From: Aequorivita xiaoshiensis
Lineage (GTDB): Bacteria > Bacteroidota > Bacteroidia > Flavobacteriales > Flavobacteriaceae
DNA: 64,000 bases
Reading direction: 5' to 3'
Assembly: GCF_022008395.1 (NCBI RefSeq)
Contig: NZ_JAIRBB010000002.1
Location: 310,001-374,000, forward strand
In this document: piece after piece, positions 151 to 5,766 of the stretch
How positions within the stretch are numbered: position 1 is the first letter of the stretch
Layout: the number at the start of each line of letters is the position of its first letter
Notes under the pieces: model-generated
What the model was told of the DNA's origin: nothing
Seen by the model: the letters and a program-made list of their open reading frames with translations, nothing else
The model's database searches: none
Program-made: the position numbers and the translations under genes

Positions 151-678
151 CTAGCAATTCGATTCCTCCAATTCCTTTAAATAAGTACTAAATTCTTTCA
201 TCGGCTTAGTAACCGCCACTCTTCCAGAACGTGCAAACTCCAGCACTCTATAAGGTTTTAGTTTTTCGAATAGCAATTGTGTTTCTGCTACGTGCCCGGT
301 TTTTTCGATAACCATAAATTGTGGGTCGACGGTTAAAATTCTAGCGTGATGTTCTCGAATTACCTTTTCAACATCACCATTGGTTAAGCCGGCTGTTTTA
401 ATTTTATATAAAGCAATTTCTTGATGTACTACCTCGGAATCTTCATGTACAAAAGCTTTAAATACATCAATTAATTTTTCAAGTTGCCCGATAACTTTAT
501 CTACCTGTTCTCTAGTTGTTCTTAAAACTATGGTATATCTAAACACTCCTTTCACTTCCGATTCTGAAGCTGTAATACTATCAATGTTTAAATGTCTACG
601 CGTAAAGATTATAGTGACGCGATTCATCATCCCGATACTATTCTCAGTAAATACTGATACTGTATATGTTTTTTCCAT
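151..678 (-). CDS. ilvN: Acetolactate synthase small (regulatory) subunit
   Basis: This 175 aa protein is the regulatory subunit of acetohydroxyacid synthase; it activates the catalytic subunit and mediates feedback inhibition by valine. Residues 4-78 form an ACT domain (TVSVFTENSIGMMNRVT, then a second half around residue 50), followed by the C-terminal ALS_ss_C region. The length is normal for the family. It starts 6 nt after the ilvB stop, so the two subunits are translated as a pair. It lies in the ilvE-D-B-N-C operon under the triple attenuator. Confidence 0.95.
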   Translation of the reverse strand: MEKTYTVSVFTENSIGMMNRVTIIFTRRHLNIDSITASESEVKGVFRYTIVLRTTREQVDKVIGQLEKLIDVFKAFVHEDSEVVHQEIALYKIKTAGLTNGDVEKVIREHHARILTVDPQFMVIEKTGHVAETQLLFEKLKPYRVLEFARSGRVAVTKPMKEFSTYLKELEESNC

Positions 679-684
679 TTCTTT

Positions 685-2379
685 TTAATTTAATCGCACT
701 TCTGAAACTGAGGCTCCAGTGGTCATCATCGGGAAGACATTTTCTTCCTTGGCAACCATTACTTCCAATAAGTAAGATCCGTTGTGATTCAGCATTTTTA
801 ATAATTTATTTTTCAAATCTTCTCGGGCTTCAACTTTACTAGCCTCAATACTATAAGCCTGAGAAAGTGCTACAAAGTCTGGGCTTACCATGTTTGTGAA
901 GGAATAGCGTTTTTCAAAAAACATTTGTTGCCATTGACGCACCATTCCTAAGAAACGATTGTTTAATATGATGACTTTTAGATTGATATCACTTTGCATA
1001 ATGGTACCTAATTCTTGCAACGTCATCTGAAAGCCACCATCCCCGATTATCGCTACCACAGTTTTATCCGGCGCGCCGTATTTTGCTCCAATAGCTGCAG
1101 GAAGTGCAAAGCCCATAGTCCCTAATCCACCAGAGGTTATGTTGCTTTTAGTTTTGTTATATTGATAATACCTAGCCGTCATCATCTGATGTTGCCCGAC
1201 ATCGGTAACTACTACTGCTTCTCCATTGGTTAGTTCAGATAGCATTTTAACTACTTCATCCATTTTTAATTCTTCTGAATGAAGTTTCCTTGTACTTTCC
1301 AAAAGCGTTTCAACTTCTATTTTTTTAGCATCTTTAAACTCTTGTAACCATGAGGTATGTTGCTTTGGGACGACCAAATCAGTTAATATTCTTAAGGCTT
1401 CTTTAGCATCCGAATGTACAGCTACATCTGCTTTAATAATTTTATTCAACTCGGCAGCATCGATGTCTACATGAACAACTCTAGCTTGCTTAGCATACCT
1501 CGACACATCGCCAGTCACTCTATCGTCAAAACGCATCCCAATAGCAATCAACACATCGCATTCATTAGTTTTAATATTAGGAGCGTAATCTCCGTGCATT
1601 CCTAAAAACCCAACGTATTGCGGGTGGTTATTAGGAAATGCTCCTAGCCCCAAAAGTGTAGATGCCACTGGGATTCCAGATTTTTCAGCAAACTCCAATA
1701 ACTCTTCTTCGGCATTAGAAAGCATTATACCTTGACCAATAAGTAAATAAGGCTTTTTGGCTTCATTTATTAGTTTTGCGGCTTCTTCGGCAACGGACTT
1801 ATTTAACTTAGGTCTTGGATAATAACTTCGGATATTTGTACATTTTTTATAATGGAAGTCTGTTTCGCTAAACTGCGCATCTTTGGTTATATCTATTAAT
1901 ACCGGACCAGGACGGCCAGAACGAGCGATATAAAATGCTTTTGCAATTGCCGCAGGAATGTCTTCCGCTTTAGTTACTTGGCAATTCCATTTGGTAATTG
2001 GCATAGAGATACCCACTACATCCGTTTCTTGAAAAGCATCTGTTCCCAAAAGATGTGAAGCTACTTGTCCTGTAATACAAACCAATGGAGTTGAATCTAT
2101 CATTGCATCAGCCAATCCTGTTATTAAATTGGTAGCTCCAGGTCCAGAGGTTGCGAAAACCACACCTGTTTTCCCTGAAGTTCTAGCGTATCCTTGTGCT
2201 GCGTGAATTGCACCTTGTTCGTGACGTACCAAAATATGATTCACTGTACTTTTATAATCATACAAAGCATCATATATCGGCATTATGGCTCCTCCTGGAT
2301 AACCGAATATTGTATCAACTTGCTCAGCTAATAAAGATTCTACTACAGCCTGTGCCCCTGTTAATTTTATTAAGTTCAT
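685..2379 (-). CDS. ilvB: Acetolactate synthase large (catalytic) subunit
   Basis: This 564 aa thiamine-diphosphate enzyme condenses pyruvate with pyruvate or 2-oxobutyrate, the first committed step to valine/leucine and isoleucine. The N-terminal PYR domain has IFGYPGGAIMPIYDAL and the catalytic Glu at about residue 54 (RHEQGAIHAAQGYAR). The C-terminal PP domain has the ThDP/Mg motif GDGGFQMTLQEL ending in NN (NNRFLGMVRQWQ). The length is typical. The gene is separated by 17 nt from ilvD upstream and 6 nt from ilvN downstream. Confidence 0.97.
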   Translation of the reverse strand: MNLIKLTGAQAVVESLLAEQVDTIFGYPGGAIMPIYDALYDYKSTVNHILVRHEQGAIHAAQGYARTSGKTGVVFATSGPGATNLITGLADAMIDSTPLVCITGQVASHLLGTDAFQETDVVGISMPITKWNCQVTKAEDIPAAIAKAFYIARSGRPGPVLIDITKDAQFSETDFHYKKCTNIRSYYPRPKLNKSVAEEAAKLINEAKKPYLLIGQGIMLSNAEEELLEFAEKSGIPVASTLLGLGAFPNNHPQYVGFLGMHGDYAPNIKTNECDVLIAIGMRFDDRVTGDVSRYAKQARVVHVDIDAAELNKIIKADVAVHSDAKEALRILTDLVVPKQHTSWLQEFKDAKKIEVETLLESTRKLHSEELKMDEVVKMLSELTNGEAVVVTDVGQHQMMTARYYQYNKTKSNITSGGLGTMGFALPAAIGAKYGAPDKTVVAIIGDGGFQMTLQELGTIMQSDINLKVIILNNRFLGMVRQWQQMFFEKRYSFTNMVSPDFVALSQAYSIEASKVEAREDLKNKLLKMLNHNGSYLLEVMVAKEENVFPMMTTGASVSEVRLN

Positions 2380-2396
2380 TATTCTTTTTATTATAA

Positions 2397-4073
2397 TTAT
2401 TTATCTGTAACACATCCTGTTGAAGCACATGAAACACATTTGGCATATTTGTATAAAACTCCTTTAGTTGCTTTGAGGTTTGGACGTTTCCATTCTTCCT
2501 TTCGTTTAGATAACTCCCTTTCACTTACTTTTAAATGAAGTGTATTATTTTTTGTATCAATAGTGATAGTGTCTCCATTTTTTACCAAAGCAATTGTTCC
2601 TCCGTCATAGGCTTCAGGGGTTATATGGCCGACTACAAATCCATGTGTGCCCCCTGAGAATCTTCCATCGGTAATTAATGCCACATCTTTTCCTAATCCT
2701 GCACCCATAATAGCGGAAGTAGGTTTTAACATCTCGGGCATACCAGGACCACCTTTTGGTCCGCAAAAACGAATTACTACTACATTGCCAGTTTTAACTT
2801 CTCCCGTTTTTATACCTGTAATAGCTGCATATTCATTGTCATAAACTTTGGCTATGCCTTCAAAATAACTCCCTTCATTCCCGCTAATTTTTGCCACTGA
2901 TCCTTTTGAAGCGAGATTTCCGAAAAGAATTTGTAAGTGTCCCGTAGGTTTTAATGGATTAGTTAAGGACTGAAAAACATCCTGACCTGAGGTTAAGTCA
3001 GAAACATCGGCTAGGTTTTCAGCAACTGTTTTTCCTGTAGCCGTCAAGCATTCACCGTGTAGTAAATTATTTTTCAGTAAGTACTTCATTACTGCTGGCA
3101 CTCCGCCCACAGCGTGTAAATCCTCCATCAAATATTTCCCACTTGGTTTTAAATCGGCTAAAACTGGAACTTTATCACTAATTCTCTGAAAATCATTTAA
3201 ACTTAGTTCAATATCTACTGAATGTGCCATAGCTATCAAATGAAGAACGGCATTAGTAGATCCGCCGAGCACAGTAACCATAGTTATTGCATTTTCGAAT
3301 GCTTTTTTGGTCATTATATCTTTTGGTTTAATGTCCTTTTCTAGTAAAATTCTAATTGCTATTCCCGCATCTAAGCACTCTTGGTTTTTTTCTTCACTTA
3401 AAGCAGGATTTGATGAACTATAAGGCAAACTCATTCCCAAAGCTTCTATAGCCGAGGCCATAGTATTTGCAGTGTACATCCCTCCACATGCACCAGCGCC
3501 TGGACAAGCATTTTGAATTACGCCTTTAAAATCTTCGGGAGTTATAGTGTTATTGAATTTTTTTCCTAATGCTTCGAATGCTGAAACTATATTTAAAGAT
3601 TCGCCCTTCCATTTCCCTGAATGAATACTTCCGCCGTAAATCATTATAGATGGACGATTTAATCTTCCCATTGCCATAACAGAACCTGGCATATTTTTAT
3701 CACATCCTACAACAGCTAAGACTGCGTCGTACCATTGTGCACTCACCACCGTTTCTATTGAATCTGCTATAACATCTCGTGAAACCAAAGAGAATCGCAT
3801 CCCGTCTGTTCCATTGGAAATTCCATCACTAACGCCAATGGTATTGAAAATCAAACCGACTAAATTCTCTGCTTTAACTCCAAATTTCACGGCTCTTGCA
3901 AGATCGTTTAGGTGCATATTGCAAGTATTACCCTCATACCCGGTACTTACAATCCCTACTTGAGCTTTTTGCATATCTGCCTCTGTAAGTCCGATACCGT
4001 AAAGCATTGCTTGTGCGGCGGGTTGCGAATCGTCTTGCGTTATGGTTTTGCTGTATTTGTTAAGTGTTTTCAT
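2397..4073 (-). CDS. ilvD: Dihydroxy-acid dehydratase
   Basis: This 558 aa iron-sulfur dehydratase converts 2,3-dihydroxy-3-methylvalerate and 2,3-dihydroxyisovalerate to the corresponding 2-oxo acids. Visible signatures are the cluster-binding cysteines in [21 protein letters not shown] and in [18 protein letters not shown], and the C-terminal [20 protein letters not shown]. The start ATG overlaps the ilvE stop by 4 nt, which implies translational coupling. A Cys-rich C-terminal tail ([14 protein letters not shown]) is present and is common in the Bacteroidota enzyme. Confidence 0.97.
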
Positions 4074-4963
4074 TGGTAAACTGAACTTAAAGTTTTATGA
4101 GATTTTCTCACCAATTTTGAATAGGCCTCTTGCAATTTTTTACCAAGTGAATCATTCCAGTTCAGTGGAAATTCTCTCTCATCAACCGAAGCAATTCCTA
4201 TTACTTCAGCTGCAGTTCCACAATAAAAAGCACTGTCTGCTTCAGCTAACACTTCAGGAGTAAAGAGACCTAGTTTTACTTCCATCCCCAGTTCTTCTGC
4301 TAATTCCAAAACGGTTGCCCGCGTAATTCCTGGAAGAATGTTTCCTAATCGTGGCGTGTACAAAACACCATCTTTTTCAAAGAATAAATTTGCTCCTGGG
4401 CCTTCAGCTAAGTATCCATCACTATCCAATAATAAGGCCTCATCAAATCCTTTGTCTTTAGCTTCGGTTGTCGCAAGAATAGAGTTTACGTAATGTCCGC
4501 AAACCTTAGCATCAATTTTAATAGATCGTGGATGCGGACGACAGTAAGAAGATACTGTTACACGCAATTGTTTATCTCCTAAATAAGCGCCCCACTCCCA
4601 AGCACAGATCATAACTGAAACATTATTAGGTCTAGAGAGTGACATATTCGGATCACAAAAAACTAAGGGTCGAACATAAGCATCAGTTAAATTATTTTTT
4701 TCTAATAATTCGTATGTGGCATCTATTAAATCCTGAACTTCATACTTGAAAGGAATATTGATTAGTTCTGCTGAATTTTTTAAACGTTCATAATGCTCTT
4801 TGGCCTTAAAAATACTTGTGCCATCTGCTGTGGAATATGCACGAATACCTTCAAAAACACCATAACCATAGTGCATTGTTTGACTGTATAAGTCGGTTGA
4901 AGCTTCATTGGCCTTTACGAATTGACCATCTAGATAAATAACTGTGTTTTTGTTGTAATACAT
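4070..4963 (-). CDS. ilvE: Branched-chain amino acid aminotransferase
   Basis: This 297 aa class IV PLP aminotransferase carries out the last step of Ile, Val and Leu synthesis. The N-terminus has [16 protein letters not shown], the PLP lysine lies in [15 protein letters not shown] (about residue 153), and the Glu motif is [12 protein letters not shown]. It is the first structural gene of the operon and begins 30 nt after the last terminator of the leader, so its transcription must pass through all three attenuators. Confidence 0.95.
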
Positions 4964-4993
4964 TTTATATGATTTTTAATTTTAACTTTTGGT

Positions 4994-5031
4994 AAAAAAA
5001 AAGCCTTTCTCAAAATGAATGAGAAAGGCTT
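4994..5031 (-). terminator. ilv attenuator terminator 3
   Basis: Perfect 12 bp stem AAGCCTTTCTCA/TGAGAAAGGCTT (5001-5012 with 5020-5031) followed in the minus-strand RNA by a run of U (A-run 4994-5002). It ends about 30 nt before ilvE. CTCATTC in its 5' side (5017-5023) can instead pair with GAGTGAG at the leader-3 stop codon (5054-5060), with an extra AGGCT/AGCCT pairing (5047-5051 with 5026-5030). This is a mutually exclusive antiterminator. Confidence 0.9.
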
Positions 5032-5100
5032 AAAATTGGGTATACCAGCCTGACTCACTCAAGGAAGCGAATAATAATGCTGATAATAATAATGTTTGTA
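5001..5100 (-). repeat. Attenuator direct repeat, copy B
   Basis: About 100 bp that is nearly identical to 5137-5235 and in the same orientation. It covers the body of the leader peptide, the stop codon, the antiterminator and the terminator stem. Differences are confined to the terminator loop and a few positions around the penultimate leader codons. The five first codons lie outside the repeat and differ between copies. Confidence 0.9.
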
Positions 5101-5111
5101 TATTTCTTCAT
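5055..5111 (-). CDS. ilv leader peptide 3 (Ile-rich, 18 aa)
   Basis: The small ORF reads MKKYTNIIIISIIIRFLE and then TGA. Seven of 18 residues are isoleucine, in blocks of four and three (ATT ATT ATT ATC, then ATT ATT ATT). The stop codon is embedded in GAGTGAG, the 5' strand of the antiterminator. A ribosome that finishes the peptide would cover this strand and allow terminator 3 to form; a ribosome stalled on Ile codons would leave it free. This is the classical layout of ribosome-mediated attenuation. Translation itself is inferred. Confidence 0.85.
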   Translation of the reverse strand: MKKYTNIIIISIIIRFLE

Positions 5112-5131
5112 GGTTCGAATTTGTTTTAAAT

Positions 5132-5166
5132 AAAAAAAGCCTTTCTCAACTGAATGAGAAAGGCTT
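5132..5166 (-). terminator. ilv attenuator terminator 2
   Basis: Stem AAGCCTTTCTCA/TGAGAAAGGCTT (5137-5148 with 5155-5166) with a following U-run in the minus-strand RNA (5132-5138). CTCATTC (5152-5158) can alternatively pair with GAGTGAG (5189-5195) at the stop of leader 2, exactly as in the downstream copy. Confidence 0.9.
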
Positions 5167-5235
5167 AAAATTGGGTATACCAGCCTGACTCACTCGAAGG
5201 AGCGAATAATAATGCTGATAATAATAATGTTTGTA
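5137..5235 (-). repeat. Attenuator direct repeat, copy A
   Basis: Upstream copy of the approximately 100 bp unit also found at 5001-5100. It holds leader peptide 2 without its first codons, the antiterminator strands and the terminator stem. The near identity of stem, spacer (including the palindrome GGTATACC) and Ile codons suggests recent tandem duplication or gene conversion. Confidence 0.9.
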
Positions 5236-5246
5236 TTTGTCGTCAT
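5190..5246 (-). CDS. ilv leader peptide 2 (Ile-rich, 18 aa)
   Basis: The small ORF reads MTTNTNIIIISIIIRSFE and then TGA, with seven Ile codons. It starts just downstream of terminator 1 and ends in the antiterminator strand GAGTGAG of terminator 2. The first five residues differ from leader 3 while the Ile core is the same, so the Ile codons appear to be the selected part. Confidence 0.85.
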   Translation of the reverse strand: MTTNTNIIIISIIIRSFE

Positions 5247-5263
5247 TTAATAATCTCAGTAAT

Positions 5264-5296
5264 AAAAAAGCCTCCTGATTTCTCGGGAGGCTTTTT
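5264..5296 (-). terminator. ilv attenuator terminator 1
   Basis: Stem AAAAAGCCTCC/GGAGGCTTTTT (5265-5275 with 5286-5296), U-run in the minus-strand RNA. Its sequence is unrelated to terminators 2 and 3. The 5' arm AAGCCTCCCG (5284-5293) can instead pair with CGGGAAGGTT (5319-5328) at the last codons of leader 1: nine pairs with one bulged A. That gives the same antiterminator logic in a different sequence. Confidence 0.9.
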
Positions 5297-5314
5297 AAAT
5301 ATATTGAATGTATA

Positions 5315-5389
5315 CTATAACCTTCCCGTTGCAGATGTGATAATCACATTTACATTAATAATAGAAGAAATAATATTTAGATTGTTCAT
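5315..5389 (-). CDS. ilv leader peptide 1 (mixed Ile/Val/Leu, 24 aa)
   Basis: A 24-codon ORF beginning MNNLNIISSIINVNVII and ending TSATGRL. It contains six Ile, two Val and two Leu, so it could sense all three branched-chain amino acids, unlike the almost pure-Ile leaders downstream. It begins about 20 nt after the promoter -7 element and ends beside the antiterminator strand of terminator 1. No other gene occupies this stretch. Confidence 0.85.
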   Translation of the reverse strand: MNNLNIISSIINVNVIITSATGRL

Positions 5390-5409
5390 AGTTGCTTTCA
5401 ATTGCGTGA

Positions 5410-5440
5410 CAAATGTAAATAAATATTTTAATTCTCAAAA
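5410..5440 (-). promoter_or_regulatory. ilv operon promoter (Bacteroidota type)
   Basis: Minus-strand -7 element TACATTTG (5410-5417) fits TAnnTTTG, and TTTTG (5436-5440) is placed 18 nt upstream as the -33 element. It stands just ahead of leader peptide 1 and gives one transcript that must cross three terminators before ilvE. Confidence 0.8.
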
Positions 5441-5501
5441 TTTATTTTCTTAAAAACATTTAAGTAACCTCATAAGTCAACTATTAAAAATTGTTTTAAA
5501 C

Positions 5502-5534
5502 AAAAAAAGGAGGCCATATAAATGATCTCCCTTT
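5502..5534 (-). terminator. Terminator of the cold-shock gene
   Basis: In minus-strand RNA GGAG-A-TCAT/ATGG-C-CTCC forms a hairpin followed by seven U. It lies about 40 nt after the cold-shock stop codon and separates that gene from the ilv promoter. Confidence 0.7.
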
Positions 5535-5574: not shown

Positions 5575-5766
5575 TTAGTCTAAAACTTCTACGTTAATAG
5601 CGTTTAAACCTTTTCTTCCTTCTTGTGTGTCAAAAGAAACTTTATCGTTTTCCCTAATTTCGTGAGTTAAACCTGAATTGTGAACGAAAATTTCTTCACC
5701 TGATTCTAATGTAATAAATCCGAATCCTTTAATCTCGTCGAAAAATTTTACTGTACCTTCTTGCAT
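5575..5766 (-). CDS. Cold-shock domain protein (CspA family)
   Basis: This 63 aa single cold-shock domain protein binds single-stranded RNA/DNA and is thought to melt mRNA structure. RNP1 is KGFGFITLE (residues 13-21) and RNP2 is EIFVHNSGL. The length is typical for CspA-type proteins. It is monocistronic, with a terminator after it and an unusually long upstream region of about 200 nt before the best promoter match, as is common for cold-shock mRNAs. Confidence 0.93.
   Translation of the reverse strand: MQEGTVKFFDEIKGFGFITLESGEEIFVHNSGLTHEIRENDKVSFDTQEGRKGLNAINVEVLD

Follow-up and report, generated by a model that had tools for sequence, protein, structure and literature searches.

Serial leader-peptide attenuators predicted ahead of the ilv operon in Aequorivita xiaoshiensis and related Bacteroidota

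The ilv locus and the layout of its leader

The window, a 64,000-nucleotide stretch of DNA from the marine bacterium Aequorivita xiaoshiensis, carries on its minus strand an ilvE-ilvD-ilvB-ilvN operon, with 610 bases separating ilvE from the end of a small cold-shock-domain gene upstream (Table 1). The latter gene has a terminator-like hairpin of its own near 5500-5531. The leader of the ilv operon is 420 bases long, and the minus-strand region 5438-4994 comprises a Bacteroidota-type promoter match and three serial units. In every unit a leader ORF contains runs of Ile codons, to which Val codons are added in unit 1, an antiterminator strand lies at its end and an intrinsic terminator follows. 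Promoters of the Bacteroidota follow the consensus TTG/TAnnTTTG; the match in this leader, as read off the sequence, has its TTG at 5438-5436, an 18-nucleotide spacer and TACATTTG at 5417-5410. An earlier sequence-only reading of this DNA had placed three units between one clear promoter and ilvE, with ends near 5264, 5132 and 4994. All of these elements were recovered at their places, the promoter match lying upstream of unit 1 and the T runs ending at the three positions.

The three predicted leader ORFs contain 6, 7 and 7 Ile codons, and three hairpins with T runs lie between the leader ORFs and ilvE. The runs in units 2 and 3 hold Ile codons only, with a single Leu near the end of leader 3. 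A strict terminator scan returned two matches, those of units 2 and 3, against 0.4 +/- 0.8 in shuffles, and missed the terminator of unit 1, which has a loop of 10 nucleotides. Tandem Repeats Finder reported no array in 4900-5500, even though units 2 and 3 are 87% identical. In both of these units the strand GAGTGAGTCAGGCT competes for the 5' arm of the terminator, with which it can form 7+5 pairs round a 2x2 internal loop. The corresponding strand of unit 1, CGGGAAGGTT, pairs with AAGCCTCCCG at 8 of 10 positions; the pairing proposed earlier for this unit is thus present, but weaker than had been implied. Within leaders 2 and 3 the DNA ATTATTATCAGCATTATTATT (5225-5205 and 5090-5070), which includes an AGC serine codon, is near-invariant across much of the clade, a degree of conservation that exceeds the need of the peptide.

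Table 1. Features of the ilv operon and its leader (positions in the window)
Feature	Positions	Strand	Basis
ilvN, acetolactate synthase small subunit	151..678	-	Pfam ALS_ss_C + ACT_AHAS_ss
ilvB, acetolactate synthase large subunit	685..2379	-	Pfam TPP_enzyme N, M and C
ilvD, dihydroxy-acid dehydratase	2397..4073	-	Pfam ILVD_EDD_N + ILV_EDD_C
ilvE-type class IV aminotransferase, first operon gene	4070..4963	-	Pfam Aminotran_4
Predicted intrinsic terminator, unit 3, then T run 4994-5002	5001..5031	-	hairpin energy -17.3 kcal/mol; covariation
Predicted antiterminator strand, unit 3, GAGTGAGTCAGGCT, TGA stop inside	5047..5060	-	duplex -19.7 kcal/mol; covariation
Predicted leader ORF 3, peptide MKKYTNIIIISIIIRFLE, 18 codons, 7 Ile, no Val	5055..5111	-	ORF and codon count
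Pre-stop hairpin, unit 3, CGCTT-CCTT-GAGTG	5056..5069	-	conserved pairing
Predicted intrinsic terminator, unit 2	5137..5166	-	hairpin energy -17.9 kcal/mol; T run ends ~5132
Predicted antiterminator strand, unit 2, GAGTGAGTCAGGCT, TGA stop inside	5182..5195	-	duplex -18.8 kcal/mol; covariation
Predicted leader ORF 2, peptide MTTNTNIIIISIIIRSFE, 18 codons, 7 Ile, no Val	5190..5246	-	ORF and codon count
Pre-stop hairpin, unit 2, CGCTC-CTTC-GAGTG, hides start of antiterminator strand	5191..5204	-	conserved pairing
Predicted intrinsic terminator, unit 1	5266..5295	-	hairpin energy -16.3 kcal/mol; T run ends ~5264
Predicted leader ORF 1, peptide MNNLNIISSIINVNVIITSATGRL, 24 codons, 6 Ile, 2 Val, 2 Leu	5315..5389	-	ORF and codon count; aligned with relatives
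Predicted antiterminator strand, unit 1, CGGGAAGGTT	5319..5328	-	8/10 positions pair with terminator 5' arm; duplex -13.6 kcal/mol
Hairpin inside leader ORF 1 (inner stem of leader structure)	5330..5354	-	10 pairs, covariation
Predicted protector (segment 1), leader ORF 1 strand able to pair with unit 1 antiterminator strand	5364..5376	-	12 pairs
Promoter match TTG-N18-TACATTTG, upstream of units 1-3	5410..5438	-	sequence; TAnnTTTG likewise placed in 29/49 multi-unit loci
Cold-shock-domain protein gene just upstream of ilv leader	5575-5766	-	Pfam CSD

The leader very probably represents three serial ribosome-mediated transcription attenuators under one promoter, forming an AND of Ile-sensing gates of which unit 1 would respond to both Ile and Val. 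Such an arrangement, with the leader stops in or beside the antiterminator strand, had been put forward by the sequence-only reading and emerges as the best-supported interpretation of the locus. In each unit a ribosome would read the short ORF with its Ile-codon runs. When charged tRNA-Ile (in unit 1 also tRNA-Val) is scarce, this ribosome would stall on these codons, its front not quite reaching the strand around the stop codon, such that the stop-region strand could pair with the emerging 5' arm of the terminator and allow RNA polymerase to pass. With plentiful amino acid the ribosome would instead reach the stop and cover the antiterminator strand, and the terminator would form; in an untranslated leader, the hairpins hiding part of the antiterminator strand would likewise favour termination. 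Because a full-length transcript would need read-through at all three units, which would act successively on the same polymerase, the AND of three gates, the first also open to Val shortage, is expected to leak less than a single attenuator and to respond more steeply. Ile shortage would open all the gates and Val shortage only that of unit 1. The anatomy, conservation, pairing specificity, geometry and single promoter match are documented at the level of sequence in the comparisons that follow; ribosome stalling, co-transcriptional antitermination and the multiplication of the three steps are what we infer to go with them.

Recurrence of serial units upstream of ilvE, ilvD and his genes

A unit finder searched as many as 650 bases ahead of ilvE in each of 87 loci for an intrinsic terminator together with an ORF that bears a run of Ile, Leu or Val and stops between -12 and 75 bases before that terminator. 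This set is non-random, being composed of the best 80 of 186 relatives, the window's own locus, L039 and five others. L035, L036 and L037, respectively duplicates of L040, L042 and L041, were left out of it, as was L038 with its GC-rich, foreign-looking upstream DNA; the point at which that contig changes upstream of ilvE probably reflects a chimeric or contaminated assembly. A further group of distant aminotransferases (L010-L033, about 29-33% identity) was unused.

At an ORF score of 3 at least one unit was found in 79 of the 87 loci, at least two in 49 and at least three in 13, the corresponding figures being 77, 42 and 9 at score 4, and 75, 34 and 4 at score 5. The 49 multi-unit loci, 36 of which have exactly two units at score 3, present at least two leader ORFs, each with a predicted switch of its own and with unit-specific pairing. 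Serial units are common and, since 38 of the 87 loci do without a second detected unit, are not required. The sequence-only reading had held that an absence of leader ORFs from close relatives would count against it; leader ORFs are present in those relatives. The codon content of the leaders differs in part: among the 49 multi-unit loci, 20 have Val in the distal leader and none in the proximal one, and the reverse is seen in one. A chance origin of the serial units is rejected, as two units arose in none of 870 dinucleotide-shuffled upstream regions, whatever the ORF score, with the proviso that many of the rows are related rather than independent and the shuffle-based significance is therefore overstated. 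A single unit was produced by 2.2% of these 870 shuffles at the loosest score.

The finder made some errors: the distal ORF of L056 was misassigned, the first of the three units of L065 is doubtful and the third leader of L047 has no stop, leaving 11 of the 13 three-unit loci clean by inspection. In at least five of the unit-less loci ilvE seems, as judged by eye, to lie inside an operon behind a leuB-like gene, and these are therefore not operon heads.

The gene after ilvE is ilvD in 81 of the 87 loci. Operons of the same family that begin with ilvD were also scanned, using 60 upstream stretches from 109 ilvD genomes, less nine in which the ilvD start was not found and L128, which belongs to the ilvE set. 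Among the resulting 50 loci at least one unit was found in 32, two units in 7 and none in 18. A recurring element like TTGAACATCATA is seen some 130-190 bases or more upstream of ilvD in such operons (e.g. L121, L122, L136 and L149), and also occurs in ilvD-first loci without any attenuator.

The his operons of the family served as a check both on the finder and on the idea that attenuators are routinely repeated in these bacteria. Exactly one His-rich leader ORF was detected in 28 of 30 his loci (L180-L209), none in 2 and two in no locus, i.e. one attenuator per operon, as exemplified by MTFIQLHHHHFHTCTQAS. There was no HisG match in the window's own genome. The other matches to the leader DNA in that genome (L002 and L003) appear by eye to be ordinary terminators.

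Antiterminator pairing, leader hairpins and stall geometry

In 180 units, pairing of the antiterminator strand with the terminator of the same unit averages -13.6 kcal/mol; the corresponding means are -6.6 when the strand is shuffled and -7.8 when it is taken from another unit whose terminator is unlike. This own pairing beats 95% of the swaps in 59% of the units. By class, the same is true of 38/49 proximal units of multi-unit loci, 27/49 first units, 20/30 single units and 17/39 units of ilvD-first operons. Within loci the own terminator was preferred over that of an unlike neighbour in 115 of 128 comparisons, with a mean margin of 5.2 kcal/mol, and the units therefore look insulated from one another.

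Covariation was evaluated on alignments of 35 of the 54 proximal and 20 of the 48 distal units. In the 35 proximal units 83.2% of the antiterminator cells are paired, compared with 78.6% in shuffles and 41.7-50.3% when the strands are slid, and 21 cells are changed on both sides as against 6.6 in shuffles; two of the five measures were unexceptional (39/500 and 125/500). Covariation in the terminator stem is stronger than that of the antiterminator (23 cells against 4.2, 0/500). In the 20 aligned distal units, on the other hand, covariation of the unit 1 antiterminator is at chance (68.6% versus 68.6%), with slid versions scoring higher. The compensatory changes anticipated in relatives are thus seen for the proximal antiterminator, and those counted for unit 1 do not exceed chance in the aligned distal units. 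The earlier proposal that the unit 1 pairing is conserved is only partly borne out: over half of the distal units beat 95% of swaps, but the covariation count gives no support. Codon changes in the Ile columns are biased towards synonymous ones in the proximal leader (6 versus 2 non-synonymous) and not in the distal one (2 versus 5).

The last codons of leaders 2 and 3 can form a 5-pair hairpin whose 3' strand, GAGTG, is the start of the antiterminator strand. With 25 of 54 pre-stop regions aligned, this hairpin retains 5/5 pairs in 25/25 units of the window clade (20 of them distinct; 100% of cells, versus 14-60% when slid). Outside the window clade the pre-stop register is not kept, 5/5 pairs being present in 27/54 GTGAG-type units. 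Leader 1 has a different structure, which was studied on 13 of the 48 distal ORFs: its inner hairpin of 10 pairs has 96.9% of cells paired and five pairs with changes on both sides, and its outer stem, whose 12 pairs join the antiterminator strand to the codons that follow the first two Ile codons, has 82.7% of cells paired and one pair with changes on both sides. The score of the two stems taken jointly was reached by 0 of 500 shuffles, the structure itself having been drawn from one of the 13 sequences. Unit 1 is accordingly laid out, as far as its predicted pairings go, in the classic 1:2, 2:3, 3:4 manner, the 1:2 stem being the less certain part; the inner hairpin is strongly and the long-range protector weakly supported.

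The hexamer TGGTAT recurs between the leader stop and the terminator: of the 180 units 36 have it, where shuffles predict 2.3, related units being counted alike in this tally. It occurs in several unlike unit families and pairing offers no explanation for it; perhaps it is a polymerase pause site.

The geometry of stalling was modelled on the assumption that the ribosome covers 14 bases from the A site. On average over the 180 units, the probability that the nascent RNA conceals the 5' arm of the terminator is 0.68-0.71 as long as the A site is occupied by a codon no later than the final one of the BCAA run, and drops to 0.18 five codons past the last BCAA codon. The half-drop falls 0-3 codons after that codon in 132 of 180 units, and its position is correlated with that of the last BCAA codon (rho 0.47 over all units, and 0.39 for proximal and 0.56 for distal units of the ilvE set). 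No such correlation is seen in the ilvD set (rho 0.05, n=39). Under the assumed footprint, a stalled ribosome would leave the antiterminator strand free and a terminating one would cover it. Folding of the individual units, as the sequence-only reading had suggested, gave the expected antiterminator duplexes (-13.6, -18.8 and -19.7 kcal/mol for units 1 to 3), but in equilibrium folds of the full-length leader, walked in five loci, the terminator wins at nearly all ribosome positions. Antitermination in this folding model must therefore be kinetic, i.e. the antiterminator would have to form first.

Origin of the third unit, alternative readings and relation to known attenuators

Three units are encountered in the window clade, namely in Aequorivita, Bizionia, Flavobacterium psychrophilum (L050), some MAGs and Brumimicrobium oceani, while two units are more widespread, e.g. 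in Winogradskyella, Kaistella, Vaginella, Chryseobacterium, Pontibacter, Roseivirga, Crocinitomicaceae and Kordia. Where there are two units, the terminator of the distal one is unlike that of the proximal one. Units 2 and 3, by contrast, share the 87% identity of the window and 64-91% across 12 three-unit loci, an identity that marks the third unit as a duplicate of the ilvE-proximal unit. A tree of the proximal units has low support and mixes the copies of unit 2 with those of unit 3, which suggests one old duplication with later homogenisation or re-duplication. In L056 (Myroides sp. 1354) a further near-identical copy of the proximal unit, broken by a run of N, lies ~240-60 bases upstream of ilvE; this is perhaps an independent duplication or an effect of the assembly. 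With respect to the sequence-only reading, the refinements that these sequence comparisons bring are that many relatives are two-unit, that the third unit is a duplicate, that unit 1 has Val codons and that the leaders contain hairpins.

At slightly less than even odds, serial attenuation is the ancestral control of ilv in Bacteroidota. A distal gate for Ile/Val and a proximal one for Ile would then have arisen separately and been retained as an AND device with low leak and steep response, some lineages would have gained a third gate by copying the proximal one, and the entire leader would travel with the operon from genome to genome. As regards the last point, ilvD is present in only 6 of 28 genomes of the window's genus, a genus in which some assemblies have an ilv leader identical to that of Aequorivita sinensis, A. 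vitellina or A. capsosiphonis. In one of these six (G156, L039) ilvE is 90-91% identical to those of Kaistella and Vaginella and 74% to that of the window, and the leader has two units of the Kaistella/Vaginella type; the ilvE of Brumimicrobium is 82% identical to that of the window. The ilv operon, with its leader, looks to have moved horizontally between genomes.

The similarity of units 2 and 3 might alternatively imply that only one or two units regulate, and that the third, having arisen recently by tandem duplication of the proximal unit, has little effect and is drifting. The loss of the stop from the unit 3 leader in one MAG (L047) and the restriction of most multi-unit loci to two units would both fit such a scenario. 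We regard it as unlikely, since in the window clade both copies retain the start, the Ile run, the stop, the pre-stop hairpin (intact in every unit used), the antiterminator and the terminator. Further, in some species the copies have diverged in the last leader codons (RSxE versus CPPG) with these parts retained, and the three units of Brumimicrobium all have altered terminator arms that still pair with their own strands.

A second alternative is that what look like leader units, with their short ORFs and hairpins, are genes for small RNAs or small peptides that carry terminators of their own, the ilv genes being served by a separate promoter. In its favour, an ORF and a terminator are present in every unit, and 13 matches to TAnnTTTG lie between units in the 49 multi-unit loci. 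These are spread over 15.4 kb, i.e. 0.84 per kb, whereas the 100 bases upstream of leader 1 have a match in 29 of the 49 loci, mostly 15 to 30 bases before the start codon (6.26 per kb), and on these rates separate promoters between units are rejected. A promoter between position 5000 and ilvE that makes most of the ilv mRNA had been named by the sequence-only reading as evidence against itself; downstream of the last terminator, in the 3.0 kb that precede the gene in the 49 loci, TAnnTTTG does not occur. The ORFs, moreover, are BCAA-rich and lineage-variable in sequence and stand ahead of ilv genes with a matched antiterminator, which renders this alternative very improbable. Still less credence attaches to a riboswitch, T box or protein-binding leader that senses the amino acid directly with the ORFs being incidental, a reading to which conserved post-stop bases beyond pairing, such as the TGGTAT described above, might lend some appeal, but which is rejected because nothing in the window matches an Rfam family at gathering score, the permissive matches are all below that score and at chance level (the best to the leader being MicF, which scores 34.9 bits and has its gathering score at 79), and the conserved structure follows the ORF end and the BCAA codons.

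Serial attenuation under a single promoter, as preferred here, has its closest parallels in the ribosome-mediated transcription attenuation of the ilv, trp, his and leu leaders of enterobacteria. The ilv leader resembles these in having leader peptides rich in the regulated amino acid, alternative antiterminators and terminators, leader hairpins and a stall-switch geometry. It differs in comprising three complete serial units (mostly two in the relatives) rather than one, in the Bacteroidota type of its peptides, stems and promoter, and in that the stop of units 2 and 3 lies inside the antiterminator strand, with a 5-pair hairpin in the last codons as the protector. The trp leader is described in section 11 of PMC3641672, as are the tandem attenuators mgtM and mgtP of the Salmonella mgtCBR leader (PMC3641672). 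The mgtCBR leader, going by the portions of that paper that treat it, is reminiscent of the present case in having two serial leader ORFs, each with a switch and one sensing proline, and is unlike it in that the signals differ (ATP and proline), the effects are additive and the stems do not resemble intrinsic terminators. In the ilv leader BCAAs are the predicted signal of every unit, none of the units lacks an intrinsic terminator, and many genomes share the layout. The two attenuators of msrD reportedly sit before two different genes. They are termed a double-lock system in the relevant portions of PMC10314930, according to which two serial leader-peptide attenuators likewise lower basal expression, albeit in an antibiotic-sensing resistance operon. 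Thus, leader-peptide attenuation is classical and mgtCBR and msrD provide two-attenuator precedents; what is new, as far as the predicted units go, is serial attenuators for the same signal, common in the ilv operon of relatives and unlike the single-unit his leader.

In the open-licence literature, as far as its accessible portions extend, no description of serial ilv attenuators in Bacteroidota was found; subscription papers lay outside this scope, so a prior description is possible. Neither do the relevant portions of PMC8632094 and PMC4833913 describe serial ilv attenuators. For F. psychrophilum, which belongs to the same bacterial family as the host of the window and has three ilv units in the present set, clues for leader-peptide attenuation upstream of amino-acid operons are presented in PMC9723704, the main text of which, in the portions considered, does not name ilv or mention more than one attenuator per operon. 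Short ORFs resembling leader peptides are also noted in long 5' UTRs of Bacteroides thetaiotaomicron in a portion of PMC7366714. On the present predictions, leader-peptide control would be a regular part of gene regulation in Bacteroidota that is little described in this literature.

Attenuation is usually taught as one switch per operon, and the ilvE loci, of which over half have two or three predicted switches for the same kind of signal, depart from this picture. Because many related bacteria carry two, the stacked switches look like an evolved design rather than an accident. The gain might lie in a lower leak, a steeper response or the separation of Ile from Val signals. The contrast with the single-leader his operons of the family makes the gain from multiplying leaky steps testable, and natural two- and three-unit variants of the ilv leader are available for comparison.
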